Assembly: GCA_950295325.1 (NCBI GenBank)
Contig: OX485804.1
Coordinates: 5,270,001 to 5,334,000, forward strand
Direction of reading: 5' to 3'
DNA: 64,000 nucleotides
From: Polytrichum commune
Lineage: Eukaryota; Streptophyta; Polytrichopsida; Polytrichales; Polytrichaceae
A program made the translations under genes and the position numbers. This document shows, one piece after another, positions 10,042-60,170 of the stretch. Numbering within the stretch: position 1 is the stretch's first letter; every line of letters begins with the position of its first letter. The notes beneath the pieces were generated by a model, which ran no database searches, was not told the DNA's origin, and saw nothing but the letters and a program-made list of their open reading frames with translations.

Positions 10042-10266
10042 CAGTTAACGGGGAGAACCGACCACTAGCTATAGATGAACTGGTTAAATTTTAAAAATAA
10101 TTGGTTGAATTTCAAGACTTCAAAAAAATTACCGATCATTTCAGGGGAACTTATGTAATATACTCAAATTAATAAAGAAAAACCGAAAGATGTGAACATG
10201 TAACCTGTTGGATTTGGAAACACTAAGATCTCGATCGGTTATGCCCAAAAATCTCTCCGGGCACTG
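10042..10266 (-). mobile_element. hAT-like MITE, copy 1 (WDR74 promoter region)
   Basis: A 225-bp non-autonomous element in reverse orientation. It is bounded by CAGTTAACGGGGAGA at the left and CTCTCCGGGCACTG at the right, and flanked by TTGTGAAC (10034-10041) and TTGTGGGC (10267-10274), an 8-bp target duplication with two mismatches. The inside has the family's GATCTCGATCGGTTATGCCC region. It ends 260 bp upstream of the WDR74 start codon, so it may lie in the promoter. Confidence 0.8.
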
Positions 10267-10526
10267 TTGTGGGCAGCGAGGTCCAGCGGGCGGGCAAGGC
10301 GGGCAGGCAGGGCGGGCGGGCAGAGGCGTCGCCTTCTTTTGAGGAGCCGTAGTGACGAGGGCTGGCAGGAGAAGGAATTCGCCGTGAGAGTGTTGAAGGT
10401 TTGAAATCACTCGAGCGTTGTTTGGAATTTTGTTAACGGATTGACTCGCAGCAGAGCAGAGAGAGGGAGAAAGGGTGAAAGAGAGAGAAAGAGAGTCCGC
10501 CCTGGTGCATTGCGTGTCAAATAGCA
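10267..10526 (+). promoter_or_regulatory. Probable promoter/5' leader of the WDR74 gene
   Basis: Between the MITE and the start codon there is a GGCGGGC-rich stretch (10285-10330) followed by a GA-rich tract (10452-10497). GA/CT tracts near the transcription start are common in plant housekeeping genes. No TATA box was seen. The transcription start cannot be placed from sequence alone. Confidence 0.4.
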
Positions 10527-13500
10527 ATGCCTCGCTCCAGCAAGGTGGAGCTCCCCGGCTGCCCTGCCTTTCGAGCTCTCTGCTGTGACAATCTCGGCTA
10601 CACCAAAGGTAACAAATGAAAACCACTTCACTTTTCTAGCAACAATGCAACGGCGTCAGATTCTTTCTTTTGTAGTTCCAGGCGGAGTCTGTTTCTCAGA
10701 TTGTGTTGCGTGCTTGCAGTGGTGGACCTTGACCCTGGAAAGGGGACGCCTCAGGTAATTAGTCGCTGGGGACAGCCGGATGGACATCAAGGAATTCTGT
10801 GCACTTCTTATTCCGATGACAACTCACAGCCGGTGAGACACTGGTCTTGACTCGTTTTACAAGTCTCGCCAATTTAGGGTTTAGGGTTTTAGGGTTTAGG
10901 AGGTGTGCAAGAATCTTGTGTGCATTTCGTTGTGGAGTTTCCTTGTAGGTTGATTGAATTCAAGGTTGTTAAGGGAGATTGCTAAAAGGTTTTGGATTCT
11001 GGCCTGATTTTCGTTGTGCAGGGTTTTGCTGTGGCAAGAAAGAATGGCAGGGTGAGATTTTCTTCTTATGTCCATATTCATTGAAAGCTAGTTTTTGTGC
11101 ACAGCTTAGGGTATAGTGCACTACATCACTCCTTTTTCGCCAAGAGAACAATCCTGTTGGTGACATAGAACTAAGCTGCACTACACATGTCTACCAAAAG
11201 CTAGTAGTTTGTGAAACATAACATCTTTGTTGCCAGGAGAGTGTGACTGGAGATCACTCACAATGTTAATTTTTCACAACCTCATTTCTTTTCTGCAGGG
11301 AGAGTGTGAGTGAACTTACATAATCTAGTAATAAGCATTTTGGCTACTCAAGGTGATTCAGAATCAAGTTGTCGTTGCATTATCAGGTTGAGGCTTTAAT
11401 TGCTGTCTCCATCTTCACCATGAGAGTGGAGGTCCAGATTTTAGTTACATGCATCTCTGTGACTCGATTGACAGGAGAAATTTTTTAATGCTTTTTCAGG
11501 TTGAAGTGTTGCATCCTGTTTCTGGAGTGGTTCTTGCTAATGTAGGAGTGCCCACCTTGGCTGACTCCGCCATGGGAGGGAGCAAAAGGACAAGAGAAGA
11601 TGCTAGCACCTCTGTCTGCGGGATTCATCTTTTCAAGAAGAGTAGTTTCTGGTAAGAGCTTTCTTCTGAGCCAGGCACTTGTAGTCATCTGAAGTTGGCC
11701 GGTGTGTGGTCACTCCTATTGCACTGATATAAACCACATCAAAGGTCAAATTTCACTCCCTTTCTGTGCTATCCCAAGGACTTAAGAACTTAAGAAGCAC
11801 TGGAATGTTTTTGAAACGTTCTTGAAACCACCCTTCAAATGCGAACTACTTCTTCCTTCCTTCCTTTCAGTCAGTAACTGACAGAAAAATACCAAGCTTT
11901 GGGTGGGTATGGTAGTTCTGAGGAAACTTGCTGTTTCTCATCCAGATATTCTTAATTTGATGCTTAAAATCTTGTTTGCAAGGTTTTTTTAATCATTTGA
12001 AGTTGGCTGGGGTGTGCTCACCCCTTTTTTTATGACATAAGGCAATTAAAGGTCAAAATTCATTGTGTTCTGTGGCTTTCTTTGGGTGCAAGAGCTTGAG
12101 AAGCACTAAGATCTTCACGAGTAGGTGTTACTTTCGTCTCATTCTGTCTATGCAATATGCAGGGGTACATCTGTGCTCACTTGCACAGAGGAGGGTGTAG
12201 CAGCAATTCAACGCATCTCGTATCAAGATAAAGAGGGAGATGATAATATGGATGTTTGTACAACTCACAAAGATGTTGTTGATGAAGCGTCAACAAGTTG
12301 GAGTGTGACTGAGTCAGGATGTGTCTTGTGCTTACAAGTTGATGGCACTGAAAGTTATGCCATCTTTGGAGGGTAAGCCCTTGCTTACGAGTCCAAGTTT
12401 TCTTCATGGCAATGTATTATATATATGTTACTGCATTGCATGTTGCAGAGTTCTTCTAAACATCTCCAACACCGACCTTCTAGATTTCTTTGTAAGCAGA
12501 TAGTTTACACCGAATTCAGAATCTCAGTATGGGATTAATGTTGGCCATGTGCTCATAGAAATATCCTTGGAAATGTTTTGTCCCTGAGCTTTGCAGCCCC
12601 TGGAAACCACCTGGTGTCTGCACATTGAATATCTCATATACAGAAACAGGAATACGCAGTTATCTTCAAATGCCATATTCTATTGGAATTCATGTCCACT
12701 TTTCTTGATGATTTTTCCGAGGTAGTTGTATCATCTGCATACCTAAATGCTTATAAAAGTCATGTGCTTTTCTTCATGGAAGGTACACAAGTTATTTTTC
12801 AGGAATGAAATTCTATCACTGCATACATTTTCAAATAAACACTTCACCTTAACTTTGCAGGAAAGGTGTGGATGTGAGCCTTTGGGACCTTAAAAAGTGC
12901 TCCCAGATATGGAGTGCTAAAAATGTAAGTCACTAGTTGTAATGACTTGTTGATTTTTGTTCTAACGTTCTGGTTATTTGATGTTATTTGGTGATGTTTC
13001 AAGTCACCTTGTTGCAATAATTTGTTGTTTTGAGGTTCTCTTGTGGTTGTTAGTTGAAGTTTCAAATGTCTAGTTAATTTTGCAGTCTCCTTCAATCTGC
13101 CAGGAAGAAATTTCGTTGATGTGCACTTGAAGGAACTTTGCAGTTCAATTTTGTGTCTGTACAAGTTTCATGTGTTTCTTGCTGGCTATGGTGATATGGG
13201 CTAGTGACTAAACTTACTACCATGTCATGAAATCCTTTCTTGCATGATCTTGCAAGGTTTAGGATTGTTATGAGGGTTAGGTGTTAGGGGTTCAGATTGT
13301 CCAAAGAATGATATCTTAGTGCTTATTTGTTTTATGCAATTGGCAGCCAAGAAGGGACAATTTGGGGTTAATTGCTCCATCATTTGTCACCTCATTGACA
13401 TTCTTGTCCAAAGATGATCATCAAAAGTTCGTTGTTGGAACTGGCCAGCACCAGGTACTACATTTATTTCAAACAGATGTCACCTACTTGGGAAGATCTA

Positions 13501-16559: not shown

Positions 16560-17994
16560 GGGCCACTCCACACCCGAGCCAAGAGCCGTGACCATGAAAT
16601 TGTGAGAGCCCAAGAGAAAGTGTTCAAAGGCCGTCCAAAGGCACCTCCAAAATCATGTAGTGTGGTCACGGATCCTCTAAGTGTCGCGCACCTCTCCATG
16701 AGGAGTGCCCGAAACACCATGGGCACAAGGGGGGCCCCGGAGTGACACCCGGGACTTGTGGTGCCGTTGGTGAGAGGGCCCAAGTGATCCTAGTGTGGGT
16801 GAGGGCCCTGGGCGTTGGGAGCGCCTCCCACCCACGAAGACTAGGAGGCACGAGGGTAAGACCATGAGCTATGCGTAGCTTATGGCATGTAGATTCTAGA
16901 ATGCTCAAGAACACCTTAGTCGGAGGTGTGAGCTAGGAGTTATGGCAATTTGAGTGGGGCGTTATCCCGGGACATCGCCCTGGTACAGCAGTGCCTGGGA
17001 GTGATTCCCGGGACTGCCAAGGTTCGAACATGCATAACTCCCTCAATACTTACTTGAATGGGGCAAGTGAGGAGTCCATGGGCATCTAAGTGAAGCGTAG
17101 ATGAAGATGGAGTGGTTGTTTGTTAGCATCAAACATCATATAAGGAAGTTATGATGGTTTGAAGCTGCTGAGGGCTTCTAGGCCCAACAACTAAGGGAAA
17201 ATGTCTACTTGGCCCCAGCTCTTGGTAGAGAGACATAAGGTTTCTTGACGGTGGTGAAGGGGCCCCGCTTAGAGTCCTAGAGGCTTATATGGGTGAGGTG
17301 GTGTGGCCTCACCCACCCGAGGCTGAACGGCACAACCTCCATGGGCTTTGGCCCATTGTGAGGCCATAGTTGCCTAGTATGATTCGTGTTGTTGTAGTGT
17401 TGCTCCGGCAATGCGATGATCAACATAAGATTGGACTTTCATGGACGGAAGTCCACATCTAAGAATTGGTTACCGATTAAGGGGTGAGTCCCGAAAGCAA
17501 AGTAGGAGGGTTGGTTCCCCTCCTATCAACTATAAGGTCCGGGGTAGGAGGAGCTAACCATTAGCATGGCGGAATGCAAAGGGTTAACGCTCGTAACCTT
17601 TGCTAGAAATGAAAATAGGCAAGATTGTTAAGGGGGCTAGCAAGGGTTGCGACACTAAGTGTAGTGTAAAGTCATATTCATGCGAGTCCTCACACATGGT
17701 AACATAGAATAAATCAACAGTTGTGAGCATTCGGAGTGCCATGGTCTCGCGGTTTTGTGCTAGGTCTACCTCCAAGAGGTGGTTTTTGAAAATAATCCAA
17801 GTGACCATGAAACATGATCCATTCGATGTCATGTAGGAATCCATGTAGACTTTACATCCATCTTGCATTCACAACCTCTGTTGGTCCCTCAAGCGTAGTG
17901 TGAAGTGAACTTGGACCGGCTTTGCCTTGTCCACTAATGAGAGTGCTTGAAGTGTAATGGTCATGGGCTCTTAGTCTTGTGTGTGAAGTGGCCC
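16560..17994. mobile_element. PIF/Harbinger-like TIR element, 1435-bp copy
   Basis: The ends are inverted repeats. The left end reads GGGCCACTCCACACCCGAGCC; the right end is the reverse complement of GGGCCACTTCACACACAAGAC. The flanking triplets TTC and TTA are consistent with a decayed 3-bp target site. Outer ~120 bp and ~340 bp segments match the 476-bp element at 55239-55714. About 960 bp in the middle is unique to this copy, GC-rich in part, with no transposase ORF. It is therefore non-autonomous, with either foreign filler or residue of a larger parent. Confidence 0.65.
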
Positions 17995-18006
17995 TTAGTT
18001 CGAGCT

Positions 18007-18579
18007 AGTTAGGAAAACCAAATTGAGCATGTAGCCACTTTTCTAATGTGTTTCGGAGCTCATAAGAATAAGATAGCTTATTCAATATCAAAGTGAAGAT
18101 ACTTGTTCTCATTGAATGGTCATATAGGTCCACCCACCCCCAATGAAGTTGACTATTGAGTTAGAATGGTTATCTTATTTTGAGCACATAGTCCCAATTT
18201 TTTTAAACACTTGTCTTTTTTGTAATCATTTTTGAAGCCACACCTAACCACACATCACTCAAGTATATGTGTGTAATCAAGATAAGTAACCAAATTAGGC
18301 ACGTCTACCTTAAATTTTAGCTTCTTATGGGGCCACCTCTAATTGGTATGCAACAATGAAGCCTATCCTAGGTATGAAGAAAACAATAATAGACATGCCT
18401 AAGTCAATTACTTCTCTTCATTAGACACCCATATTTGAGTGGTATGTGGTTTGATGTGGCTCCAACAATGGATAACGTTGAGCATGAGAATATTCACTTT
18501 GATAATGAATAAGATATTCATATGAGCTTTGAAAATCATGAGGAAAGTGGCTACAACCTCAATATGGGTTTGCTAACCA
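18007..18579. mobile_element. Foldback element with ~90-bp terminal inverted repeats
   Basis: The left arm (18007-18104) and right arm (18480-18579) are imperfect reverse complements. Shared strings include TGTAGCCACTTT, AGCTCATA and ATATCAAAGTGAA. The inner part has TTGACTATTGAGTTAGAATG. Partial relatives occur in a LIG1 intron (24080-24400) and in phototropin introns (about 33420-33610 and 34690-34900). It begins 12 bp after the preceding TIR element. No ORF; no clear target duplication. Confidence 0.6.
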
Positions 18580-19514
18580 TCTCATGCTAATTGCTTGTTT
18601 CATGTCCTAGGAGAAGTGGTCTAGTTGAAAAAATAACCATTTAAAATCCATCTACCTATATACTAAGCTTACGGAGCGAAGCCTGATGTGAATGTTAAAA
18701 ACATGGCCAAATTTCCCTTTGTAATTTGAGGTACCCGTACTTTGTGTAATGCACCCCATGTATTTTGGAGTGCATTATGATTCTAGGTTAGAGCAACCGT
18801 TGAATCACCTCCTTGGACCTTTACGTTTGGTAATGCATTTGGGGGAGTGCATTATAATAAGGGCGTCGCCAACCTTGATTTAAAAGGTAGGCTCGCTCGG
18901 GAAATCGAATTTAATCTAGTGCATATTTTTTCAAGAACAATTCATTTTCTATATATGACCTAGGCTTTCAAGTGGGCTTTCGGGCCCAAGGTAGGTCCAA
19001 CCAGTCTGGGCCTAGGCTTGGTGACACCCCTGCATTATAGGGGACGCGGACAACCGATGCTCAACTACTGCCTTGCACGGTGTCCTTAGGCCCAACTCAA
19101 CAAGCCCACGGACAAATCGTGAATAGTGACACCTTGGCTAATCTTTCGTTCCCCCCAAAGTGCTTCATCAGATGCGGCTTTAGACCTGCCGACAACCCTT
19201 ATCAGCTCCAATTGAACAAGCTGGAACATTCCTCTACTGAAGAAGTTTGGAGTCATCCCCAAACATAACCCACAACTTCTCCATCTTGTCCACTGAGGTG
19301 GCTACATTAGTTGGTGACATGACGGATTAACGAAATGGACAAACTCTGGACTTGAACAACACACTGGATGAAGTTGTTGTTTCAGCCAATGACCTTTGAC
19401 AATCTTTTGTTCAAGCGCTCGTCTGAACCGGGCCTTATACCCCATTATGCTCTTCCCCTCATGCATTACGTATTACGCACAGAATATCAACTCCTCCCGC
19501 GTGATGTGGCTTGC
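18580..19514. other. Gene-free sequence before LIG1
   Basis: No gene was recognised. A 62-codon ORF at 19080-19268 lacks domain character. The sequence approaches the LIG1 leader. Confidence 0.4.
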
Positions 19515-19819: not shown

Positions 19820-19844
19820 GTAACTAGTTACATCAAAAGTCTCC

Positions 19845-20812
19845 TCAACAAATCCATTTCCTGCATTGCCATTGTTGTTTGCCTCCTTGCTGGCTTGCTG
19901 GCTTGCTGTGTTGGAATCCACAGGGAAGGAGGTTTGTTTGTACACACATTGGAGCTCTGAATGTGCAATGCCTTGGAGAATTTGTCTTGTTTGCTTGTTT
20001 GTGTGTTTGTTTGTTTGGTGTTTTAATCGTGCCTGAACCGTTACTTTAAGCGCTGAGGATAGAGACTATTATGAATGAGATAGATGAGTTTTGAATGATT
20101 CTTGTTAGAAATTGACAGGGGATTCCAACGCACCAAAGCATGTCTTATTTGATTTCCGTATGTGATAGTTATAATAGTTCAAAATTTCATTGGTAGATGT
20201 TCCAAAACCATTAACACGGGAGCCTGACGGTAAGGTGGTGAAAAACATTCTCATAATCACTGTGCACGATTTCAGGGTGTGGGTTTTAGCACCATCTACG
20301 TTAGAGAATTTCTTACCACAATTCTCCTTCACAATTCCATTTCCTACACTGCCATTTGGTTTGCCGCCTTGATTGCTGTGTTGGGAGCCACCTGGGAGGA
20401 GGTTTGTTTGTACACACGTTGGAGCTCTGAGTGTGCAATACCTTGGAGAGTTTATTTGTGTGTTTCCTTGGTTGGTGTTGTATGGGGCTGTGTTGACAGC
20501 AAGGGAGGGTAAGGTAGATGGTTCTAAAACCGTCACTTCTATCGCTGAGTATATTATGAGATAGTAGAGTTTTGAATGATTCTTGAATGATTCTTGTTTG
20601 CAATTGACAGGGGATTCCAACTCACCAAATCATGTCTTGTGAACTCCATATGCAAAAGTTATAAGAGTTTAGAATTTCATTGGTAGATGTTCCAAAACCA
20701 TCAACCCAGGACGGGAGCGTAAGGTGATGGATATTCTCATAATCATTATGTACTTATTGGGCAAGATTTTAGGCTGTCGCATTGGTTTTAGCACCATCTA
20801 CCTTAAAAGAAT
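19845..20812. repeat. ~484-bp tandem duplication in LIG1 intron 1
   Basis: Two diverged head-to-tail copies (about 19845-20325 and 20329-20812). They share TCCATTTCCTGCATTGCC-like starts, GGAGGTTTGTTTGTACACAC, TTGGAGCTCTGA.TGTGCAAT, the ATTGACAGGGGATTCCAAC block and TTTTAGCACCATCTAC ends. Identity is uneven, so the duplication is not recent. The second copy contains a TIR-bounded 296-bp element (20510-20805). Confidence 0.75.
20510..20805. mobile_element. MITE-like element with 22-bp TIRs in LIG1 intron 1
   Basis: Ends are TAAGGTAGATGGTTCTAAAA at 20510 and the reverse complement of TAAGGTAGATGGTGCTAAAA ending at 20805, one mismatch across 22 bp. If the target site is TA, the ends would be TA-flanked. 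A related end occurs at 56527 and a related inner block plus end at 58375-58592, so the family is dispersed. Confidence 0.6.
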
Positions 20813-20857
20813 TTTGTGCCTGTGTGATGGAATTTTGTTGTTTGCCAAAACAGTACC

Positions 20858-23800
20858 ATGGCAGGGAAGAAGTCGGGGTATGAGAAGATGATGGAGCAAG
20901 CCCGGGTAGGGCTGAAGGGGAGAGGGCGAAGGCCGGCTTCCTCAACAGCGAGAACGAAGGAGGCTGTGAAGATGGAGGCATCAAAGGCAAAGAGTGGAAC
21001 TACCACTAAGGAGGATGTGAAGATGGAGGAAGAGATGGAGGAGGACACGAAGGTGGCAACCACATCTTCGGTGGGGCAGTCGGTGGCGTTTTTGTTGAAG
21101 AAGGAGACAGAGTTTGACCCTCGTTTGGCTGCCTATTGGAAGCCCGGGGAGCATGTTCCATTCACCTTTCTAGCCAGTGCATTTGATAGTAAGTCAAATA
21201 TCTAACCTCATTGAGTCATGGGTCATAGAGTGTCTGTGATGATATTCTTCTTCATTCCCTCATCGTGCAATGAATATCTGGGTTGTCTGAATTTGTACCA
21301 GAGAATGCTGAGATTGACTGAAGAAAATAGTTCCCATGTTGATCATCACAAAGTTGCATATCTCAGAGAATCACAAATCATAGAGTGTCTGTGATGATAT
21401 TCTTCTTCATTACCTCATCAATCAATGATAGCCACGGGTTTTCTGTATACCAGAGAATCTTGAAATGAACTGTTCATGCCTGCAATCCACACAAAATTCG
21501 TTCTACAAGAACAGCAAGATTGGATATGGATGGTACTGGCAAAATAGCACAAAGTTCTTGGATGGTGGATTCTGTGTATCCTTGAGTATCTCCAATGGAG
21601 AAGTCTTATCACATATTTTGATAGTTATGTAAATTTGGTGCTATGTCTAGTGATTTGGTTGGTAGGTTGATACTGTTCTGTATGCTCTTCAAATTGGGAA
21701 GCTGCACAAAATTAACACCACCAGCAAATATCTCATAGTTATGTAACTCTTGCTCTTCTTGCTTAAACCCTAAACCCTAAACCCTCAACCCTGTTATCAG
21801 GAAGTGTATTCCAGGAAGAGGCATGATGGTTGCACTTCTTAAAACGGTTCCATTACTAGTTTGCTGACGTTGGGGGTTGCAGATGCTACTCTTAAGAGAC
21901 TTACTTTTTTTAGTAATTGATCCAGATGTGAATACTTATGAAAGAGATGTGTTATCGATGAGATTTCAGTCATTTAATGTTTACTAAGACTTCAATGCAT
22001 ATTGGGATTTTTTAAAAATAAAATTTCATTTTCATCTGGCTTGTCATTTTGTGCAGTGATATCAAACGAGTCAGGGAGGCTGGCAATGACAAACATACTC
22101 TGCAACGTGTTCTGGACAGTCATTGCAACTACACCCAAGGACTTGTTGGCTGTTGTGAGCCTGTCAGCAAATCGAATTGCGCCAGCTCATGAGGGGGTTG
22201 AGCTTGGTATTGGTGATGCATCCTTAATCAAGGTCCTCACAGAGGCATATGGGAGAAAAGAAGACCAAATAAAAGCACAGCTGAAGGTGTAGTTTATGTT
22301 CTTATGCCAATTTCTGGGTACTACCTAGTTGACCCCATCACTTAACCACAATGATGTTTGATTTGTCTCTCAATCTGGTCTGCAATTTAACATGTCTTTG
22401 ACATACAAACACATCTCTGGGGCAGCTAAGTGTGTATTCTATGCAATTTATAACATTGACGTGACTTTCTCAGTGATCAGTCCTGAGGTAGTACATGTTT
22501 GCCAATTTTCCAGTCAAGGAATTTCATTCTGAGCACTCAAGTGTGTTTTGGAGATTTCGTCAGATTTGGACCCATTCATGTTTTTTGGAAATATCATTGG
22601 TTGATAATGAAGCAAGTCCTTTACACAGTCTTGGAGAAACTCAGTTCAGTCAAGTATCCATTTTTTGGAATCTAGTCATTATTTGAATTTTTACTTCACG
22701 GTACTGCTAGAGGTATTTAACTTTGCAGCTGCATTATGAAGAATTGTTCATGGATATTATCATGAATATTAAGCTACTCAAAAGACATTGTAAGTTGCTG
22801 GGCATGTCTAATCCCTATGTTTGATGCTTTTTGACACAGGAACACATGTGGAATTATTTATATGCTGTTGGAAAAATTTAATGTGGCTTCAATTTGTGAG
22901 TCTCGACAATCTCTCTCTGAGCAGTGGTGCATGTGAATGATTGCAGACATTGGGTGACTTGGGTCTTGTTGCAAAGGCCAGCCGCACCTCACAGAAGGTC
23001 ATGTACAAGGCACCTACTTTGACATGTGTTAAAGTGCTGGAAACCTTCCGTGAGATTGCAAAGGTTTACCAAACTTCCCCACAATCATCTTGATGGTTCC
23101 GGTCATGTTTTTTCCTCTGGCTTCCTTATTTGCAGCTACATTCAGCATCTCATTTTTCTTGTTGGAGTGTTGTCATTGCGCTTCTGATTGATGAAGAGTT
23201 TGGGATTGAAATCTTATTGCCTTTTTTTTTCCTGGTTATTAAAGTCATCCATAAAGTCATCCTGTATTTTAAGGGAATCCGGGCCCTCTAAGCGAGTTTC
23301 TCCTGAAAGTAAAGGCACTTGAGGCATTTCTATATGTAACTCGTGCAGCCTGGATCATGGACCCTCGTTTAGACTCAAATAACAAGAAGGTGACATCATT
23401 TTGGCCTAGTAAGGATTGTGGTGTCTCCTTGGCCCACATGGAGGAGGGTGATGTCTTGCCTGGGGGTAGTCATAAATACTCTGTTCTTCACACAAAACTC
23501 AGTCTTCCTTGAGTTTTTTCAGGACTTAATAGAGGATACTAAATATGGTAATCTGAGAGGATTCCTTCAATTTTTATGGTTTCATGATGGGATGAAAAGT
23601 TTTAGAAATATTAAGCACTATTTGAATCCATGTGTCAGTTATGTGTGCTTCTGTGACTGCAGGATTCTGGCAAGGAGAGCCAAGACAAGAAACGTGGGCG
23701 TATGAAAGCTCTCCTCGTCGCAGCTACAGACTGTGAACCCCTGTATGTGGTCCGCCTACTTCAGGTCTCAGCTACCCTTTCTGGCCATGGACTGTCAATG

Positions 23801-26800
23801 CAGATTTATTGGTCATTGGCATTCTTATTTTACCTTCAACATAATTTTTCTATGTGCTTATAGTTTTTCTGGGTTCTTTGTCCACAGTCAAAACTGCGCA
23901 TAGGACTTGCAGAGAAGACAGTGCTGGCAGCATTGGCACACGCATCAGTGCTATCCGAGGACCCTCCTGTACCTGCCTCTCAGCTCCAAGCGCGGTTGAA
24001 TGAGGTAAACATTATAGCCAACAAAGTGTTCAGAAGTATTTAAGGTAGATGAATTTTAAATGGTTAACTATTTCTGAATTACCCACTTCTTCTAGGATAT
24101 TAAACATGTGATTAGTATGAGAGGATTAGCAAATCCAATTTGAGGTCATAGCCATTTTTTATATAATTTTCAGAGCTCATATGAATCTCTTATAATTTTC
24201 AAAGTGAAAATTCTTGGTCTTGAATGATTGTTTAGGTCCCCTCGATTATGTTGGCTATTGAACCTAGAACAATCTCTTTTGAACACATGTCTTTCTAGTG
24301 TCCGTTCTTAGATCCACACCTAAATATAGGTGTCCCGATTATGAATTAGGACCACTTACATTATACCACACCTATACTTTGTTTCCAAAAAATGAGGCAA
24401 GTCAGGGCCGATGTTAGTTTATTTTCACTGTTCATTTGGTTGTGGTTTGAGAGTAATGAAGTCATTTTGTTCATGTTATTTGTCATTACTCTAGTTCAAG
24501 GGAGGGAGGCATGAAGGTTGTTCAGTCATTCGAAAATGACACATCATAAGTGAATACAAACAGCAATGGTGCCTTTTGCTTAAAGTTTATCAACCTTTTA
24601 AGAGTTGCTAGAAGTGCAGGATTTGTACTTCAATATCAATTTATAGTTCTTAAGGCTTATAATTGGTGGCTGGGTGCAGGCAGAGGAAATTATGAAAAAT
24701 ACGTACTCTGTACTTCCATCATATGAGAAGATCATAAGTGCTATTGTGCAACATGGCATCCGCAACCTATCAGATACCTGCAAGTTCACTGTAGGTGTTC
24801 CCATTGGGCCCATGCTGGCTAAGCCTACAACAGGTGTCTCGGAAGTTCTTAACAAATTCCAGGACATGGAGTTCTCCTGTGAATACAAGTATGATGGAGA
24901 ACGAGCACAGGTCATAGTTCATTTGAATTCATCGTGCCAGTAAATGCTCTTCTGATGGCTTGGTAACTAAGCTTCTGTTCTGTTGTTGATCGTATGGCTA
25001 CTGATGGCACCAAAGCCTGCCTTGGTTCTCAAGTGACTACCATAAAGTGCTTCCTGGTTCATCCTTTTTGATGCTGAACTATGATTTCCGCATGGGATCC
25101 ATGTGGACTTAACCCATGTAATACTGCCATGTGGCATTACATCAAGAATACATATTTATTTAAAGGCCCAGCAAGAAGCACTTTGTGATATCTGTATAAT
25201 TGTGGATCTAGTTCGATAATCTAGTCCAGAAGTATTTTTACAGTCATCCTTGAAACTGCAGGTGCATTTTCTGGAAGGTGGGAAAATTGAGATTTATAGT
25301 AGGAATGCTGAACATAATACTGGAAAATTCCCTGATATAGTTGGAGTGATGCCTAGGTACGTATGATCCTCCTTCCTCATCTGTTTATTGTACAAGTACA
25401 TCTGTAACTACTTCTGAAACTCTTCTGGGATTGAATGGGTTTAACACTATATTACAATGATGTGGTACTCTTGTTGTTCTATACCTTGCTTTTTCCAAGT
25501 TAAGCTTCTCAGGTTTTAAGGATCCTGGTTTCATTCTAACGACGTAGTTGTCATCTATTCTTTTGAAATATGGAGGCTTAGCATTTAGAGCTTGCTCATG
25601 AAGGAAGGAAATAGACAACCCTGTTATCTAAGCCACTTGGCTGAAACATCAAAGTTATCCTCTAACTCAACGTGACTTTTGGTCGGGAGTTGGTTGTTTT
25701 GCATACAAGATCTTCCATCTTCCTTTTTTGGAAAATTCTTGGTGTATGCTCGGAGGTAGTATAACTACTAGAAATGTGGTAGTTTCATGGCACAACAATC
25801 TAACAAGAAGTGACCAGAATGACATGGGCTGGTGTCATTCGCGGTCACTTCTTCTTAGATTGTCGTGCCATGACAATACCACATTTCTACAAGTGTGTGG
25901 ATGTTTGAACAAAGAACATTCTATATTGGTTCATTGAGAGTCAAACTCATTTTGGCACGCCAAGACACGCTAAAATAGGTTGCACTTCATTTATATTCAA
26001 ACACTACATACCTCCGAGCAAGAATCAAGAAATTATTGATATTGTGTGCAAAACAACCGATGGAAAAGTATAGGGACCAATCCCTGACGAAATGTCCCAT
26101 TGAGTTAAAAATAGCTCTATTAAAGTGTAAAAGGGATGGTATGTATATGCTTTTTTTTGAACAGTTGATATTGCCGGACTTTTCGCTGATGAGGACTGCT
26201 ATCAGTGTGCAGGTGCATGAAACCAGGGGTGAAGAACTTTGTACTTGATTGTGAAGTGGTGGCTTATGACCGGGAGAAAAACAGGATATTACCCTTCCAG
26301 GTGGGTTTCAAACTCTTTTTTGTGTTACCATCAGGATGCACGTATGCTGAAGAAATCTTGTCAGCAAAACAGCTGTATTTCCATCAAGTTGGCTGATTGG
26401 ACATGCCTTGAGCAGATCACAGATTGACTTGATCAAATTACTACGTTAGCACAGCTATCTATCTATCTATCTATCTATATATGTCTCTAAATAATCTATT
26501 TTGCAGCTACACCTAAATTTATCCTTGATGAGGTACATGCTATTTTATGTGAATGTGCAGATTCTGAGTACAAGGGCAAGGAAAGGTGTTGTGCTAAGCA
26601 GCATCAAGATCCAAGTGTGCCTTTTTGCATTTGACCTTCTGTACTTGAATGGTCGTTCATTATTACAGGAGCAGCTCAATGTGCGGAGAGAGGTAGGTGA
26701 TACCCAACTTCAACAAGTCTATAGCCGTACTCCTTTTTAAATGTGGAGTAGTTCTTGGTGATTGATATGAAGATTTGATTCACATGGGTTGCTCTTCATT

Positions 26801-32129: not shown

Positions 32130-48585
<16,456 letters not shown>

Positions 48586-49187
48586 CAGTTTATTGGCATT
48601 CACATCTCGGGGTGCCAATTATTAGATCAATTGCCCTATTAGATCAGTTGTTTCTAAATCAGTGCTTCGAGTACCTGTAATGAAATGATGATTTGTTCTT
48701 TCAACAAATAGGAGAAACATGCCTGGAAAGAGGGCATTGAGTGTATTTCACAAATGTGTCATTTTGCACTTTCGAAAGTCAATTTTATACTAATTAGATG
48801 CAAGGGGCCACCATCCAGGCCCCTTAGGTGTTGAATTTCACTCGTAAAAAAATTTACAAAATTTCATAGAATTCAGTCTTAACAATGCTTATAATGGGAA
48901 AGTGGAGCTCTCCCAAATGATGCTTCTCAGAAATGGGTTAGCAGCTCCAAACCATGTTCTAACTCACAGACGGTGACCCCTGCAAGTGCTACAGATAGTT
49001 GAATGTCACATGACATTCCCGATGAATAATTTGGTGACAAACAAGAGTCTTAAGTACCAATTTGAGATGGAAATGGGGGCACTATTACAAGAAGTGGAGA
49101 TCCAAAAACAGTTTGAAAAATGTGTGATATGAGATAGCTTCGACTGACTTCGCCAACTGAGAAGAGTTACTTACTGGCCTCGCGGTC
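48586..49187. other. Upstream region of PHOT
   Basis: Contains the probable promoter and leader of the phototropin gene. No TATA box or light-responsive element could be assigned with confidence. No ORF of interest was seen. Confidence 0.4.
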
Positions 49188-49220
49188 ACCTCGTCAAATC
49201 CTCGAGGGATTTGACGAGGT
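49188..49220. repeat. Perfect 14-bp inverted repeat
   Basis: ACCTCGTCAAATCC (49188-49201) and its exact reverse complement (49207-49220) flank the 5-nt loop TCGAG. It may be the centre of a decayed foldback element; no wider symmetry was followed. Confidence 0.8.
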
Positions 49221-49922
49221 AGGGGTTACAGGTAGGGGTGGTCAGTCGCAATGTGAGATGGGACTTTCTGAAAATGGGGGCACTATCTAGAAGAATCAGA
49301 GATCTACAAACACGAAAAGGAAAAAGAAAATCGGCGAGATGTGGGAGAGACAACTTCGACTTATCTATGTCGTGGAGTGGTGGATATTATCGTGACCTGG
49401 TCAATGCAGGTTTAAGTTATTGACACTCAAATCCTCGGTGAATGAAAATGTGAGCCTACGGGGTTATTGGAAATGAGGCTTGAGAAGAAGCAAACATCAC
49501 AAACCACCCTGCTAGTGGTGGTGGGTTCATTTGTTTAACCAGGGAGTAAACAAGGAAGCGCCCTTTGCCGCAAGTTGAATTTGAAGCGAACACTCCTGAA
49601 GATGCTTGAGAAATGGAAGGCTGGCGTTTGTGTGCACTCATAATTAGAGATCGCAACCTTCAGGAGCAACATTCTTCATCTCTTTTGTACTTGTTTTATC
49701 GCAACTAGCTGATTCCACTTGAGCAAATGTGGCGATGGATTCAGGCTGGTCTCATTTTTCAGGCTTCCACTGCTTAAATCCTTGGTAATGAATCAATTAT
49801 CCTGGTAATGTATCAAGTTTCCATAAGGTTCCATAGACAGAGGACCCGAACAACGAAATAATTGTGCACAGAGATGGTGAACCGTAACAGGACCGAATAT
49901 TGTCACAGTTTAACAATCTTAC

Positions 49923-50906
49923 CTCGTTCGAAGCTGAATTAGTACGCAACTTGGTGTGCGAGCTACTCACACTAGATGAATTAGACATCAAGGGCCTGGA
50001 AGAAGAATTTTTCTTTCCGTGCAACCCTTCCACCACCATCGCCCTGTCGGAGATGGACTTTTCAATCTGCGCCAGCTTCAAGCTACTAAGTTGTGCAGCA
50101 GACTTGGAGGATTTGAGATTCCCGGGCGCCTTCTGGTGCAATTGTGCAAGCGACACGTCCACTCCCACCCATAGTGCACCTTGGGACGACGATGCAGCGG
50201 CTCCTGCAGCATCAAATTTCCAGTTCAAGAAATCATCATAACTCTAGTATAAATGGTTTTATTCATTGTTAAATTCACTCGGAGGTAATGCTTGAATTGA
50301 ATGAAAATCACCCTATGTTGGTCTATTGCGGACCACATCATTTTAGCACCAACTGACTTTCACCCTCAACGAACTGATAAAGGAAGACTTGTTTTCTCCG
50401 TTCCAACCTCCACACTACCTCCAAAGGTTAGGGTAACTCTAATAATATCAACAATGTGTTGCATCCACTTGTGGCGCACTGACGCTCGAAGGTAATGTTG
50501 AATTGAATGAAGAGCGACCAGTTTTGGTTCATTGAGGGCCGGATCATTCCAGCTTCAAGTTTACTGAATTTTACCCTAGATGAACTGATATACGAAGAAG
50601 ACTTTGTTCGTTCGTTAATGTCAGATTGTTTTTGTTCTAAAAAATTTCCAGTTTCTTCTGCAGGCACCTGGGGGTAATGGATCTTGCTCTGCATCCACTT
50701 GCGTCCATGAGCGAGAGACATGATGATGTTGGCGACCTGCTGCTGCTTCTGATTCTTGAAGAAGACGTGGAGCCCCGCCGAAAACTTCAATTGAACCTCG
50801 AGAGGTCCGACTGCCTGACTCCGACCTCGATTTCGCGTCCTTCCAATAACTTAATGCTGTGCGTCGGCTCGACGACGGCTCCGAAGTAGTGGACATGTCG
50901 ATTCTC
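49923..50906 (-). pseudogene. Unidentified gene or pseudogene with an apparent frameshift
   Basis: Exon-like segment 1 (50906-50668) is coding in two frames. First it reads ...HYFGAVVEPTHSIKLLEG and VGVRQSDLSRF, ending at a TGA (50789-50787). From about 50793 the neighbouring frame continues sensibly (QLKFSAGLHVFFKNQ, QQQVANIIMSLAHGRKWMQS) to a donor after 50668. Segment 2 (50243-49923) has an acceptor TACTAG, compatible phase and 107 codons (SYDDFLNWKFDAAG, a Ser-rich middle, NSASNE) with a GTAAG donor. The reading is protein-like over both exons, but joining needs a one-base shift near 50793. No clear ATG or last exon was found. I do not recognise the family. It could be a recent pseudogene, or a sequencing error could break a live gene. 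Confidence 0.5.
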
Positions 50907-50979
50907 CTGCTCACGTTGCTCTGTTCATCAACCTACACACGACAGACATCGCCGACTCTATCTTCACTGCACTTCAGTT

Positions 50980-50980
<1 letters not shown>

Positions 50981-51010
<30 letters not shown>
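50981..51010. repeat. AG microsatellite
   Basis: Fifteen AG units just upstream (minus strand) of the unidentified gene, where a leader would be expected; compare the GA tracts before WDR74 and LIG1. Confidence 0.9.
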
Positions 51011-51013
<3 letters not shown>

Positions 51014-51089
51014 ACACCAAAAGATTAAGCAAAACAATTTGGTATCTCAGGAATGGAATCTCCGATAGTATTTGTACTGGAGGTTTGGT

Positions 51090-51885
51090 ACACATTAGTG
51101 CGGTCCAGCTCGTCAATCGTGGGCGATTTTCCCCAAATATATATTGAGTCTCCTGTGGGATATTAAGTGAGATAATATAGATCTCTCCGGACTGAGTCGT
51201 CCAAACCACAGGAGGAAAGTAACCATTTGTTATTTCGTGCAGCGGCTGCAAAAATTTCTGCAATCTCGTATCTATCTATCCTGGACGTCCAAGCAAGCCG
51301 TACTTGACTTTGGTTAGAAGCTTACACATGAATAGTACTGTCCAGCTCTCAATCGTTGGAGATCTTCCCCAAATTTATTTCCTGTGAGTATTTTAAGTGA
51401 GTGATTATGAATCTCTGTATCCTCCGAACTGAGTCGCCTAAACCGCAAATGTAAGTAGGTAATTGAGTTGTTATTTCGTGGAGCAGCTACGACGATTTTT
51501 GCAATCTCGTACCTATCTATCTATCGATCTATCCTGGACGTCCAAGCAAGCACGAAGGGAGGTTATTAAATTACATGAGTACTGTCCAGCAAGAGAGACA
51601 ATCCTTGGAGATCTTCCCCAAATTTATTGCATTGAATCCTGTGGAATTTTAAATGAGAATTTTTTTTCAATCTGTGTAATATCATCAGCATTTAGAGTGA
51701 CTTGCGAGGTTTGCCAATTTGGCATTCCATGAAGAATCTGCATCTATACTGGGTGTTCAAGCAAGCAGATTAAGACTAGAAGGTGTACACATTGGAATTT
51801 AGGACAGTCCAGCGAGACAATCGTTGGAGATCTTCCCCAGATTTATTGCATTTCCTGTGGAATTTTAACCGAGAAATAACCAAGC
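51090..51885. repeat. Four-unit tandem array, ~230-bp period
   Basis: Diverged units begin at about 51090, 51325, 51575 and 51790. Each carries GTCCAGC followed by CAATCGTTGGAGATCTTCCC and CAAATTTATT-like sequence. The first three end CCTGGACGTCCAAGCAAGC or a variant; the fourth is short. TATC runs lie inside units 1 and 2. The array is non-coding and sits upstream of the minus-strand gene. Confidence 0.75.
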
Positions 51886-53424: not shown

Positions 53425-53525
53425 CAGTGTCCAGGGAGATTTTTGGGCATAACTTTAATCAGATGAGTCCTTCCATGTCCAACCGGTTACGTATGTTAAC
53501 ATCCTTTATGTTCCATCCTCATTTA
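53425..53525 (+). mobile_element. hAT-like MITE, copy 6 (partial)
   Basis: Starts CAGTGTCCAGGGAGATTTTT and keeps GGGCATAAC and CCAACCGGTTACGTATG, then loses similarity after about 100 bp. The right end is missing or too diverged to see. Confidence 0.7.
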
Positions 53526-53825
53526 TAAAAAAGCTCCAGTAAAGTCATTTCATCTCGCCACTATGATTTGTTCTTGTTATAGTGGTGAAGATCAACGTTG
53601 GATTGGTACACCCTAAACTCCATAGTATCAACCTCCATGATGTCACACACTCTCTTATATCCCGAAACCCTAGGGAACGGATGTTCGTAGTTCAAATCTC
53701 ACTCCTTATATATTGTCACATTTCTCTCCCTTATATCATGAAATTTGTCATTAATGCAAACTATTTAAAAAGTCAGCCCACACCTCACATTGCGCCATGT
53801 GTCAACATGTGGAGTGTCACCTTCT

Positions 53826-53859
<34 letters not shown>

Positions 53860-55238
53860 CTTATGCCACTTGTTGAATGTTGGTGCATGCATCCGCCACA
53901 TCGCTCAAGAAAGGCCAAGTGGAGTGGACCACACTAGTGAAGGTGATGGGAGAACAAATTCAAATTGTCCTCACATCTCCTTTGTGTTATTCCATAATGT
54001 CACATGCTACAGTAACTCTATAGTACCACACATCCATGTTGACATTACAAAACTCCGTAATATCACGTGCACTTTGGTTGCCACAGGTGTGATGCTACAA
54101 ATTTTAGAGTGTATTGTCTTGTCTTTTTCTTTTTCTTTTAAAAACAAATTGGGTATGTATAATAAGGAGTCCGTAATTTTTGATACTATTAGGGTAATGG
54201 TATTTGACGACATTTTTGTTTTTGTTATCATTCGGGTCTATTTACCAACAAGAATCTTTCATATCTAGTAAAATTTACGTAGTATCTTATGGTTTAGAAT
54301 AGCATTGACCCAAATAAAAACTCATGTATACAAAGATTTTCTCTCCTTGACACACCTACCAAATATCAATATTCAACTAACAATATAATATTTATACCCA
54401 GAGTTTGGTTCTATGATACCTTTATCGATGGTTATTATAGATACATATGCATTCACTTAATATTTACATGTCCAACATTGGTGAACACCATCGTTTCTAG
54501 GACATGTTGAGTTGCATCTTCTCCCATAGGCAAGCATCCTATCTCCCACATGTATATTGGATAAAAATGGGAAGAATTTGCTTCAGAGTAGAAATTCGGT
54601 TGGTGGTTGTGATTGCTCAGGTGCCTCAATTTCTTTAAAATGATAATAATAATAAGACAAAGACTCGGAGGACTCTAGCATTCACCAAGAACCAACATGA
54701 ATTATAAGCTCATTGTCACATGTTTGTTCAATGATTGGATTGTGTGCTACGGGTTAGTTTCCATGTAGGTTGCTCACCCACCAAATTCTAGTGGGAATAA
54801 GGACAAACTCGTCCAAATGTAGATGGAATCTTGTGGAGTAGGGTTCATATGTGCCAACTAGCTACTCTCATTTTCTCAAATCCCGGCCCACCTACTAACT
54901 TTCTTCTCTAGGTTAAAACCACCTCCTCCTCCTAAAACCGGTATTCAATCCTTTGGTGACCAACACTTGTAGGTGAAAAGGTGCTTTAGTGGACACATGG
55001 GAGTCTAGCGGCTTATGTCCACGGCCCTCCACACTTCTGTAGCCCACCAAAATATGGTTGGTTGATGGCTTGTGCTTATCTACATGTAAACACCTCCAAC
55101 TCACTATCTCTAGAATTTGGTGGGCGAGCGGCCGACATGGAAAGTCACCCTATGCAAGTGTTGCCTCCATCACAATGGTGAGCACATTATTTTTATTATT
55201 TTTTAAGTGCATGTTGCAACCTCCATGTCTATGTCTAA
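53526..55238. other. Gene-free sequence with TTG microsatellite
   Basis: A TTG run (53828-53859) lies inside a 228-codon ORF (53582-54268) whose Leu tract comes from that run; the rest has no protein-family character. Otherwise nothing was recognised. Confidence 0.4.
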
Positions 55239-55714
55239 GGGCCACTTCACACATGAGCCAAGAGCCGTGACCATGACATTGTGAGAGCCCAAAAAAAAGC
55301 GTCCAAAGGCCGTCCCAACACACCTCCAAAATCATGTAGGGGGGTCACGGATCCTCAAGTGTAGTGTGAAATCATATGTGACCGGGCCATCAACCAAATG
55401 CTATTTCATTCAATTTCTATTCATGCAGGGTCCTCACACATAATAAAACATAATAAATCAACGGTTGTGAGCGTTCGGAGTGCCATGGTCTCCCAATTTT
55501 GTATTAGACCTACCTCCAAGAGGTGGTTTGTTGAAAATAGTCCAAGTGACCATGAAACATGAACCATCTGATGCCATGTAGGAATCCATGTAGACTTTAC
55601 ATCCATATTGCATTCACTTATGTACTTTGTTGGTCCCTCAAGCGTAGTGTGAAGCGAGAGTGCGTGAAGTGTAATAATGCTCACGGGCTCTCAGTCTCGT
55701 GTGTGAAGTGGCCC
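55239..55714. mobile_element. PIF/Harbinger-like MITE, 476-bp copy
   Basis: Starts GGGCCACTTCACACATGAGC and ends with the reverse complement of GGGCCACTTCACACACGAG. Flanked by TAA (55236-55238) and TAA (55715-55717), the 3-bp target site typical of PIF/Harbinger. Its whole length matches the two outer parts of the 1435-bp element at 16560-17994, so this is an internal-deletion derivative, or the other copy gained an insert. Confidence 0.8.
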
Positions 55715-56526
55715 TAATTAACCCAGGAATTCACCACGGCAACTTTGAACGTCACCCCCACCTCAACATTCTTAGTAGAAAAATTGAAGTCGGGTCATTC
55801 TTGTGGCAACCACAAATGTCAACCACCAATGTACTATGAGTGACCATACACTTTTTTTTCATCAGTATGCATGGATAATGCATGGAAGTTGCGATTCGAG
55901 AAACTTTGGTTGGCTTGCAGCAACATGAGACATGTGGTCCGGTATGATTTTGTGCGCTTTTCAAATGTGAGAAAGGATGTGTCAAATGCATGGTGCGAAC
56001 TCATTTTGTCCCCGTGACCATTATTGGTTGCACTTGAAACTGGAGTAAGGTAGAAATACCATAACCCGTGAAAATAAGGTGATTCACATTGAAGATCTGG
56101 TCTGATAATCATGAGATAATTTTCCAAGATAGACGAGAAGGATTCATGAAGAATGCAAGTTGTTTCATATTTTTTTGCCCTATACAAAAAATGCTACAAT
56201 TTTTCAAAGTGGAAAGTTGTCCAAATCCCTACTCATTCACTAGATTTTTCCTACACCAAACACGGTAATCGGCATTTCCATACAGTACATTGCTTAAATT
56301 GGTTACCTCATGAGTGCATTAACACTTGACTCCCATTGGCTACATTAAGTGTACACGCACTGAAGTTGCCGCCAAGCCATGATCGGTTTTAGAAATGGCA
56401 CTTCACCATTATGACGGCGGTCTAGTGCACGGCTAGCGGGTGGTTAATGGGTTATGGTTTTTCTACCTTAGCCGATGTAGTAGAGTAGCAGCCTAGCTGG
56501 CTAGGTTCACGAGTGGCCGAAGCTAG
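55715..56526. other. Gene-free sequence
   Basis: No gene, RNA or complete element was recognised. Confidence 0.4.
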
Positions 56527-58592
56527 TAAGGTAGATGGTGCTAAAAACCCCTTTGGGTTGGGGGGGGGGGGGGGCTGAACTCTTCATTGGAAACCTAAGT
56601 GACGTGCGGGTTGGGGTGAGAGTTTAGGCATCCAACAAGGAACGAGTGTATGGGTTGTTTCGCCCAAATCGTGACGTGCGTGGGCCACTATGAATTTAAA
56701 CCCCCTATATACAAGAAATTTACTGAGGAAAACAAATGTATACGTATTAATGGTAGGCTGGAAAATGGACTCAAGCTTTTCATTTTCATGTGATGAATGT
56801 CTCCTCCACATATATAGAATATCAATTAGGAAATAAATTGGTCCTTATTACATATTATACAATCCACTTTCACATTCCAACGAGAAAGTCATCAAACACT
56901 TTTCCATACATAAGATGTAAGTCAAAGATTGCATCAAACAAACGAAGAGAAGAGCACAGTAACTTAGCCACAATTTGGAAAGCAAACTTGAAGGGAGGCG
57001 ATGAGTGCACCAAGAGTCTCCGAGTTGTAAAAACCCCAAACCCATATGCAAAATTTGACAAGAATGGATAGGGTAGTCATTAGGGATTGTTACCATATGA
57101 CAACAATGGATGAAAACATAAATTGGACGAAACCAACACTTATAGTATATAAATAATTCTCTAAACCCTAAGACCCCGCCTTTTGTACATGTACCTTTAT
57201 TTCAACATTTTACTAGTCTTTTTAAATGTACGCACTAGTGGGAAAAAAAATAAAACCGCCTCTTATGTGTACTATGATGTACATCGTAATGCCTTCATTT
57301 ATACCCCTTTCTACACGCACGTTAGTTCATACATGGTATGAAAAGGCCACCCCCCGAGTAAAAACCGTCCCTTTGATTCTTATTAAAGACATTTTTTAGC
57401 TCATTACTCCCAAAATTTTGGCCTAGAGGGAAATGAGGGGTGAAGCATTTTCTAAGATGCACTATGAAATAACAAATTTGACAGGGGTTGCTTGAGAACT
57501 GTTACAAGAATAAAGAAGTTGTGAGACACTATTGAAATATCACATCCAAAGAAAGAAAGAACCAGAAACTCCGGTCCCTTTTTAGCAAGGGGCCGGCGTG
57601 AATAAAGTGTCCGTTCGTAATGCCAGTGAACCCGATGGCCACTGGACAAGGGGACACTGGGACAATACTACTCTCCCCTTTCGAGGATGGACACTATGTG
57701 ACACACTATACTAGTTCCTAGCTAGCCACTAGTGCCTTGAAGATACCGGACATGGTATCCCCCCAAAGGGCTTTGAGGTACCCATACAACAAGGTCCAAG
57801 GACCCCCCACCATAGTTGGGTGGACTAAGGTGGTGAGCACCACGCCGGCATGGGGAATAGAACCCACAACCTCCTCATTGGGGGCCATGAGCCTAACCAC
57901 CAAGCCAAGGCCCGTGGTGCCCTGATCACATCCATATGTTTATGATCACAACTAATAGGTTTGGTATCTCTTTATGATGAATTCAAGAGGAAGTTGATTT
58001 GCAATTCATCATTTGTGTGATGAGAAACTTGATTAGATTGGTTGAATTCCCAAATATTATATATCAAATTGGTGGAGAGCATAATATGATCTTGAAGTGA
58101 TCACATCTGTCAAAATGTCTCTTGAGATGTGAACACTTCATGAGGTACAAAGAGTGTACATGCATTCAATTTTATAATCAAGCTTTGGGGGGTGACAAAC
58201 AATTTTAATAGCTATGAGTGAATTCTAGGAAGAAAATGGCTAAAAACTATTTATTTTTTAACATGACCCATGGTGTGTTGAAGCTATGGACAAAATGTCC
58301 TTGTAGCCCTTTAGGGGTCAAGCCTAGATACTATTATTAGATGAAAATTAAATAATTTTTCTTAACATTTGACAAAGGGATTTCCACACATCAAAGCAAA
58401 TCTTCTTTGAATTCCATATGCAAAATCTATAACTTAGGATCAATGTATTAGTGATAGATGACCCAGACCAACTTTCGAACCTTATTGATAAGGTGTTGGA
58501 CATGCTCATACTAGGCAATATATACGTCTTGTGTGATACTCTTAGGATTCAGGTTTTGGATAAGGTGTTAGTCATTAGCACCATCTAAGTTA
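56527..58592. mobile_element. Possible 2.07-kb TIR element, tentative
   Basis: The left end TAAGGTAGATGGTGCTAAAA (56527) is opposed at 58575-58592 by the reverse complement of TAACTTAGATGGTGCTAA. These ends resemble the TIRs of the MITE in LIG1 intron 1. The block at 58375-58592 also matches that intron's inner sequence (GAATTCCATATGCAAAA, GGTTTTGGATAAGGTG). A 15-bp G run sits at 56560-56574 just inside the left end. No transposase ORF was seen; the two ends may belong to different copies. Confidence 0.3.
57725..57922 (-). mobile_element. tRNA-derived SINE candidate
   Basis: On the minus strand a box-A-like TGGCTTGGTGGTTAGG (57907-57892) is followed about 30 bp later by a box-B-like GGTTCTATTCC (57864-57854), the spacing of an internal Pol III promoter. 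The head reads GGCACCACGGGCCTTGG. The non-tRNA body runs on for about 130 bp; the 3' end and target duplication were not established. Confidence 0.45.
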
Positions 58593-59945
58593 CCATATTG
58601 CCCTATAACTTTTAGTTGAACCATCTGATTATCCCAATTATTAGGTGTTACTAATCGGAGTTACACAATGCAATAATGTCTTACTTAGGAATTCAATCTT
58701 TACTAACGAAAGTTCAACAAGTTGTTCAAACATTAGAGAACATCAATGACTTTGCTTGGTGATATATTACATCCTCATTAAGTAGTTATAGCATTGCATA
58801 ACTCCAAATAGTAACACACGCTAATTGGGGTAATCCGCATAGCTATGGTTAAGTTTAAAGTTAAGTTGGTCAGAAATTAATTGGATGGGATGGAATGCCT
58901 GCATTGGAGGCCTAGTGACCATCATGAAAGATGACAAGAAAGGGGGAAAGACGACGGCAAAATTTGTCCGTCATGAATGAGAGCCCATTTAATATGTAAG
59001 TGACCACTTAATATATGCCAGTATTTGGATGAGCATGGATGTTGCCGAGATTCATCTATGTAATTGGCTTCATCATCACTACATTTAAAATTTGTCAACT
59101 ACACCAAACATTGTGTTTGGTGTCACTCATTCTATTTGTGTTGCTCGATTTACTAATTGTAAACCACCCATGTAGTGTCACCACCATCAAATGTAAACCT
59201 AACGTTACTTGTCATTCCTTGTATAATGTAACAATTATTCTCATTCATTGATGATTTTTCATCTACTACAATATTTCATTACATAAACGTTAGAATACAC
59301 AAAACACCAAGAGTAGATGAATAAAAAATAAGTTGGGTTGGCAGTAGTTGTAAACTTGTTCATAAGAAGTGTCATAAGAAAAGTTACCACACAATGACAT
59401 GAAATATGATACGACACATAATGCCCCCTCCCCACCTGACTTTAGCTAAGCCCAAAAGTTGGTTCTAAAAACATGGCCTTCACACCATCGGCATTACCTA
59501 GTGCCGAGTCTAGCTGGCAAATGATGTGGCATGGATTAAAAGTGGAGGTTTTAAGCCTCAAGTACCGACCCTCCCATCGGTACCTAGACATGAGGCAAGA
59601 ATGTAGGACCTTTACAAGTGTCGCCTCCCGCCCTTGTGATTAGTTGCTTTAAGTGTTAGCTATGAGGGCACGAGGAACTCCATTAACAAAACCGATAGTA
59701 AAATAGGTGAGTAGTAAGGCATTTGGGGATGGGACAAAAACTATCCAACATTCATTGCTTGATAGACTTAAAAAAAAACAATGAACATGTGTGAAAACTA
59801 CTTAACCAAAACCTACTCGAAAACCTCTAGAACAAGTTCTTGTAGGTGCTTTGGGATAGCCGGATGCCTCTGCTATAACCGAGGGAACTTTACCCGGTTT
59901 TTAGGAAAGACTTTGATTATTTGGTAAAGTCAGGTGGGAAGGGGA
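58593..59945. other. Gene-free sequence
   Basis: No gene or complete element was recognised. Short ORFs are AT-driven. Confidence 0.4.
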
Positions 59946-60170
59946 CTATGATTGGAGAGAACCGGCAGTTAGTTACAAATGAACAGTTGAGTTCGAAAAA
60001 TAACCGGTTGAAGTTCAAGACCGCAGGAAAAGTACCCATCATTTTAGAAGAATTTATAGAATATACCCCAATTTAATAAAGGAAAACCGGAGGATGTCAA
60101 CCTGTAACCGGTTGGACTTGCAAACACTAGAATCTCAGCCGGTTATGCCCAAAAATCTCCCCGATCACTG
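59946..60170 (-). mobile_element. hAT-like MITE, copy 7
   Basis: 225 bp in reverse orientation, CTATGATTGGAGAGA to CTCCCCGATCACTG. Flanked by GAAGGGGA (59938-59945) and GAAAGGGT (60171-60178), 6 of 8 identical. The inside retains two ACCGGTT motifs. Confidence 0.8.

Follow-up and report, generated by a model that had tools for sequence, protein, structure and literature searches.

Miniature inverted-repeat transposable elements (MITEs) of the hAT superfamily have been reported in nearly all plant genomes surveyed (PMC12550479), so a family of this kind is as such ordinary. According to the published accounts of the closest systems, Ac/Ds of maize has 8-bp target duplications, 11-bp terminal inverted repeats (TIRs) and small non-coding members, and cooperative binding of the Ac transposase to subterminal AAACGG repeats is described (PMC3260210). 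Hermes has the target preference nTnnnnAn, and its BED domains are described as binding some of the left-end subterminal repeats (PMC10368747); Kat1 has subterminal hexamer repeats that differ in polarity from one end to the other (PMC4763223); and the binding motifs determined for CGG-binding proteins derived from hAT mostly include CGG, some being GCGC or AT-rich (PMC8097297). Among hAT MITEs, BniHAT-1 and BniHAT-2 of Brassica nigra (673 and 666 bp, with TIRs of 25 and 12 bp) were assigned to hAT by their 8-bp duplications (PMC7385995), and the 610-bp Mar of Drosophila has 8-bp duplications, an 11-bp TIR starting with CAG and some copies in or near genes, within a reported range of hAT TIR lengths of 5–27 bp (PMC3517528). 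Here we describe a 64-kb window of Polytrichum commune (the whole stretch of DNA analysed, from contig OX485804.1), which contains eight copies, six of them complete and two broken, of a short MITE that carries no gene and is very probably of the hAT type. The family is probably new but of a known, common kind, and is notable for regularly spaced copies of a putative enzyme-binding motif. We are highly confident that it is a non-autonomous family of hAT-superfamily DNA transposons, probably mobilised via its CGGT motifs and CAGTG tips with an 8-bp stagger.

The six full copies occur in both orientations and are 67–80% identical to one another in pairwise BLAST comparisons. A hidden Markov model (HMM) built from them recovered each copy over model positions 1–225 with at most one end position missing. 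Their coordinates and lengths (Table 1) were exactly those given in the original prediction. A partial copy starting at 53425 was recovered as predicted; the predicted count of seven copies, however, has to be replaced by six full and two partial ones, because a fragment at 39770–39690 on the reverse strand had been overlooked. The eight other HMM matches listed in the window all have E values of at least 1.9. Longer relatives having their left 80–90 bp in common with the two fragments were sought as a right tip (any of six tip pentamers) with a flank match of at least 5/8 within 6 kb. No such tip was found for the 53425 copy, and the one 5/8 candidate for the other fragment, 5.3 kb away, was not credible. 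Both fragments were taken as truncated. The full copies have the features of MITEs, being short, non-coding, similar in length (215–225 bp) and bounded by inverted-repeat ends; the sole open reading frame (ORF) of at least 150 aa that overlaps a copy (10144–10635, at copy 10042) has no Pfam match. Eight copies per 64 kb suggest that the family is abundant in the genome. It was not described in the titles and abstract openings among the literature matches listed, and it may already be catalogued in a repeat collection such as Repbase or P-MITE. An exact-match search with one conserved right-end stretch gave no hit in viral contigs or prokaryote genomes, as expected for a plant element.

The 8-mers flanking the six full copies agree at 37 of 48 positions (77%). 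Copy by copy along the window the agreement is 6, 7, 7, 6, 5 and 6 of 8; as a set, these values equal those of the original prediction. At flank lengths of 4–7 and 9–12 the identity was 17–38%, with the best count at length 10 (23/60) and 17/54 at length 9. Among 265 mis-paired flanks the maximum was 20/48, and among 100,000 random placements it was 27/48, none reaching 37. When both boundaries were shifted in step the flank score fell gradually, from 35 to 21, and with unequal shifts it was 21 or less. In all six full copies of the window, the boundaries coincide with the element ends and are flanked by matching 8-mers. Each full copy's flanking 8-mer differs from those of the other copies, so that the insertions are independent. 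The copies diverge by 10–16% from their consensus, and by our arithmetic equally decayed 8-mers would be expected to be about three-quarters identical, which matches the observation.

The two ends of the element form an imperfect 15-position inverted repeat, CAGTG-NN-CGGGGAGA, past which they show no clear similarity to each other. The pattern CAGTGNNCGGGGAGA is present with 0–2 mismatches at 10 of the 12 full-copy ends, bearing out the predicted CAGTG-type ends, and with one mismatch at 53425; ends at 44164 and 59946 are too decayed to register in a scan allowing three mismatches. That scan gave 25 matches in the window against 8.45 expected. As 14 of them lie elsewhere, with 2–3 mismatches, the end pattern alone is not specific.

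A paralogous unfilled site was found for one of the insertions. Between the two oppositely oriented copies at 46719 and 47725, at 46943–47599 within a phototropin intron, lies an old tandem duplication with a unit of about 350 bp. The 8-mer ATAATATG, which copy 46719 has as its left duplication and which agrees at 6/8 positions with the right duplication of that copy, stands once at 47291, and from there the homology to unit 1 continues rightward. Because the element is present in one unit only, copy 46719 was most likely inserted after the tandem duplication. Together with the other copies in the same gene, this site provides a small relative chronology of intron growth.

At the divergence given above, the copies are old. 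Consensus CpG positions show a change 29 times in 129, C>T or G>A accounting for 23 of these changes, compared with 146 of 1191 at other positions, and this excess is consistent with methylated, unconstrained transposon DNA.

The majority consensus of the six full copies, 225 bp long, has eight plus-strand CGGT sites, of which three are part of a palindromic ACCGGT. Counted on either strand, CGGT occurs 35 times in the 1,325 bp of the full copies (26.4/kb) and 179 times in the other 62,675 bp of the window (2.9/kb), a ninefold difference that confirms the predicted repetition of an internal ACCGGTT-type motif. ACCG is the top 4-mer of the consensus (11 against 2.08 expected) and AACCG the top 5-mer (8 against 0.79), each count being reached in 0 of 1000 shuffles. 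Single shuffles contain some other k-mer up to 16 times (4-mers) or 9 times (5-mers), so the motif does not stand out by its raw count, but it does in the motif-by-motif comparison. The sites at 30, 61 and 82 are repeated at 133, 164 and 185, a common shift of 103 that suggests an internal direct duplication with an offset of 103 bp. The direct test was no more than suggestive: the best self-diagonal has this offset with a score of 14, and the largest of 200 shuffles also scores 14 (mean 8.4); in a plain autocorrelation, offset 125 (z 3.89) exceeds 103 (z 3.75); and identity at offset 103 is 38/71 over positions 26–96 and 24/56 outside the motifs.

Seven of the sites have the form YCGGT, all in the same direction (the three palindromic ones read both ways), with spacings of 31, 21, 51, 31, 21 and 22 bp, close to whole multiples of a helical turn of about 10.35 bp. 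Their phasing at this period (R 0.95) was reached by 4 of 10,000 random sets. With all eight CGGT sites, including the off-phase site at 203, R is 0.83 (83/10,000); for the five CGGTT sites it is 0.95 (154/10,000); and for the seven sites plus CGGG at 8 it is 0.94 (0/10,000). Single copies, which have 3–6 sites each and their own indels, give R values of 0.67–0.93 at 10.35 bp, the lowest being 59946 and 47725. Under a null model already containing the internal duplication, the seven-site value was reached by 231 of 20,000 sets. The phasing was noticed post hoc and is partly due to the possible internal duplication, and is treated here as a lead. We consider it possible, though rather unlikely, that the element is a helically phased array of putative transposase-binding sites over its whole length, derived partly from an old internal duplication with the 103-bp offset. 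If so, bound transposase subunits would align on one face of the DNA, and the element would be a minimal "saturated" hAT substrate, which could explain its success as a MITE. Confirmation of the array on many genomic copies would provide a natural test of the number and spacing of subterminal sites that a hAT transposase needs, and of whether MITEs win by concentrating binding sites.

Taken together, the 8-bp target site duplications (TSDs), the short CAGTG ends, the length of 215–225 bp, the lack of recognised coding sequence and the independent insertions support the original reading of a hAT-type MITE. In the mechanism that we propose, a hAT transposase encoded elsewhere would bind the repeated CGGT motifs inside the element and cut at the CAGTG tips, and the excised 225-bp element would be pasted into a new site with an 8-bp stagger, giving the 8-bp duplication. 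We infer the identity of this transposase and its binding to the motif; the copies are presumably immobile now, as all six have diverged from the consensus to the extent described. Several observations weigh against this reading. The flanks of copy 47725 agree at only 5/8 positions. No more than part of the target pattern nTnnnnAn can be made out, with T2 in 8 and A7 in 5 of the 12 flank copies of the six insertions; the pattern leans to the Ac type, six sites being too few for more. At the unfilled site, only 4/7 aligned bases match to the left of the 8-mer before the alignment stops; the right edge is thus seen directly and the left edge via the 8-mer alone. Moreover, ATAATATG is found at four places in the window, 12243 and 58081 among them; since it is not unique, what counts is where the unfilled site stands, at the very point at which the duplicated unit resumes. 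Finally, the 64-kb window yielded neither a transposase nor an autonomous relative. All 64 of its stop-to-stop ORFs with 90 aa or more were scanned against Pfam and none has a hAT domain, although short, spliced or decayed pieces could escape such a scan. The predicted absence of an autonomous parent holds for these ORFs. Six of the 64 ORFs had Pfam matches, two of which (MIEAP and Pkinase) are below Pfam's own cut-off. Two pieces of hAT protein gave no match to the window beyond chance (best E 0.62).

Because no transposase was found in the window, the superfamily assignment rests on the duplications and ends. This leaves room for a MITE of another superfamily (P element, Merlin or Mutator-like) whose duplications can be close to 8 bp long, moved by its own transposase, and P-element MITEs are among those reported in plants (PMC7385995). 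We consider this origin quite improbable, since the pooled duplication length is 8 rather than 9 or 10. The CAGTG-type ends and short TIR also suit hAT. Multiplication of the copies by segmental or tandem duplication instead of transposition might be suspected because a single 18-kb gene holds five of the eight copies, and one intron of it, which also has the tandem duplication, holds two. The distinct 8-mer at each of the six full copies contradicts this for them, the alignments between copies stop no more than about 3 bp from the element ends, unit 2 of the tandem duplication has no MITE, and the copies are only weakly clustered in the gene (P 0.045 for five of eight), so that this explanation has hardly any likelihood left. 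A conserved, non-mobile element of the host, regulatory or RNA, that contains a CGGT array would account for eight CGGT motifs in 225 bp, seven of them near one helical face, but we regard it as extremely unlikely in view of the target duplications, the copies in both orientations, the lack of any Rfam match in the window and the more frequent change at CpG positions, which is consistent with unconstrained, methylated DNA. As for a hairpin or RNA function, the one copy folded (44164) did no better than shuffles (z -0.57) and Rfam gave nothing in the window; this candidate was rejected.

Table 1. MITE copies, associated sites and host gene, in coordinates of the 64-kb window (TSD, left / right 8-mer with agreement)
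Feature	Position	Strand	TSD	Remarks
Full MITE copy, 225 bp	10042–10266	-	TTGTGAAC / TTGTGGGC (6/8)	
Full MITE copy, 215 bp	40693–40907	+	GTCAAAAG / GTCAAAAT (7/8)	between phototropin LOV2 and kinase exons
Full MITE copy, 216 bp	44164–44379	+	ATAGGAAG / ATGGGAAG (7/8)	between phototropin LOV1 and LOV2 exons
Full MITE copy, 224 bp	46719–46942	+	ATAATATG / ATATTGTG (6/8)	intron within LOV1 coding region
Full MITE copy, 220 bp	47725–47944	-	GACTTGTG / GGCTCGTT (5/8)	LOV1 intron that also holds copy 46719
Full MITE copy, 225 bp	59946–60170	-	GAAGGGGA / GAAAGGGT (6/8)	
Partial copy	53425–53507	+		HMM model 1–82, E 6.5e-10
Partial copy, not in original prediction	39690–39770	-		HMM model 2–92, E 1.1e-7; phototropin kinase-region intron
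Tandem duplication unit 1	46943–47234	+		alignment starts at right edge of MITE 46719; 71% identical to unit 2
Tandem duplication unit 2	47291–47599	+		without MITE
Paralogous unfilled target ATAATATG	47291–47298	+		in unit 2 of tandem duplication
Phototropin gene	32214–50243	-		firm matches 48153–33194; outer limits weak

Of the eight copies, four full ones and one fragment are situated between exons of the phototropin gene, whose LOV1, LOV2 and kinase exons are spread over about 15–18 kb. The first LOV1 exon matches a solved structure of phototropin-1 LOV1 (E 6.5e-18), the second matches a Pfam PAS domain (E 5e-10), and the LOV2 and kinase exons match consensus pieces. The limit at 32214 is given by a 12-residue match (E 0.21), and 50243 is a putative outer limit, by resemblance only. 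The intron between the two LOV1 exons (48007, 46169) holds copies 47725 and 46719, and an intron between two kinase exons (39847, about 39508) holds the 39770 fragment, with GT and AG at the inferred intron ends in both cases; copies 44164 and 40693 were placed between exon matches in introns whose ends are not both defined. A preference for this gene was not convincing, with five of eight copies in 28% of the window (P 0.045) and four of six full copies (P 0.057) under the wide limits 32214–50243.

Elsewhere in the window, exons of an ATP-dependent DNA ligase (Pfam DNA_ligase_A_N and DNA_ligase_A_M) were found at 21978–24940 (+), and an integrase zinc-binding domain (PF17921, E 6.4e-11), probably a retrotransposon remnant, at 5038–5520 (-); the ORF at 2580–3860 has no Pfam match. 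A second dispersed repeat, 78–89% identical between 16560–17995 and 55239–55715 and with ends that include an inverted repeat, is near-contiguous at 55 kb and split by about 0.9 kb of extra sequence in the 17-kb copy. A near-palindrome of about 121 bp at 25769–25889, 85% identical to its own reverse complement, is possibly another hairpin-type MITE. There are also inverted dispersed repeat pairs at 18487–18664 and 24035–24214 (80%) and at 45298–45423 and 59098–59226 (78%), and tandem or nearby direct duplications at 1589–1948 (96%), 51089–51875 (70–84%), 19834–20814 (72%) and 62402–63544 (76%).

Compared with the systems described at the outset, as far as their accounts go, the Polytrichum element resembles Ac/Ds, and especially Ds1, in its 8-bp duplications, short TIRs, small non-coding form and several CGG-containing motifs. 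It differs in that the motif here is YCGGT/AACCGGT and extends over the whole element, the TIR sequence is different and there is no known autonomous partner; Ds1, at about 400 bp, is also about twice as long. Like BniHAT-1 and BniHAT-2, it is a plant hAT MITE placed by its duplications and ends, but at 225 bp it differs from them in length, a comparison made by description only. The imperfect 15-position TIR agrees with the short TIR and CAG-type tip of hAT elements. With Mar the element has 8-bp duplications, a TIR starting with CAG and copies within a gene in common. The Buster-type target nnnTAnnn of the longer Mar (610 bp) is not visible here, T4 being present in 5 and A5 in 2 of the 12 flank copies, which leans against that pattern although six sites are too few. 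The array runs one way throughout, unlike that of Kat1, and the element, like Hermes, has multiple short repeats, the repeat motif of Hermes being a different one, AAGT (PMC10368747).

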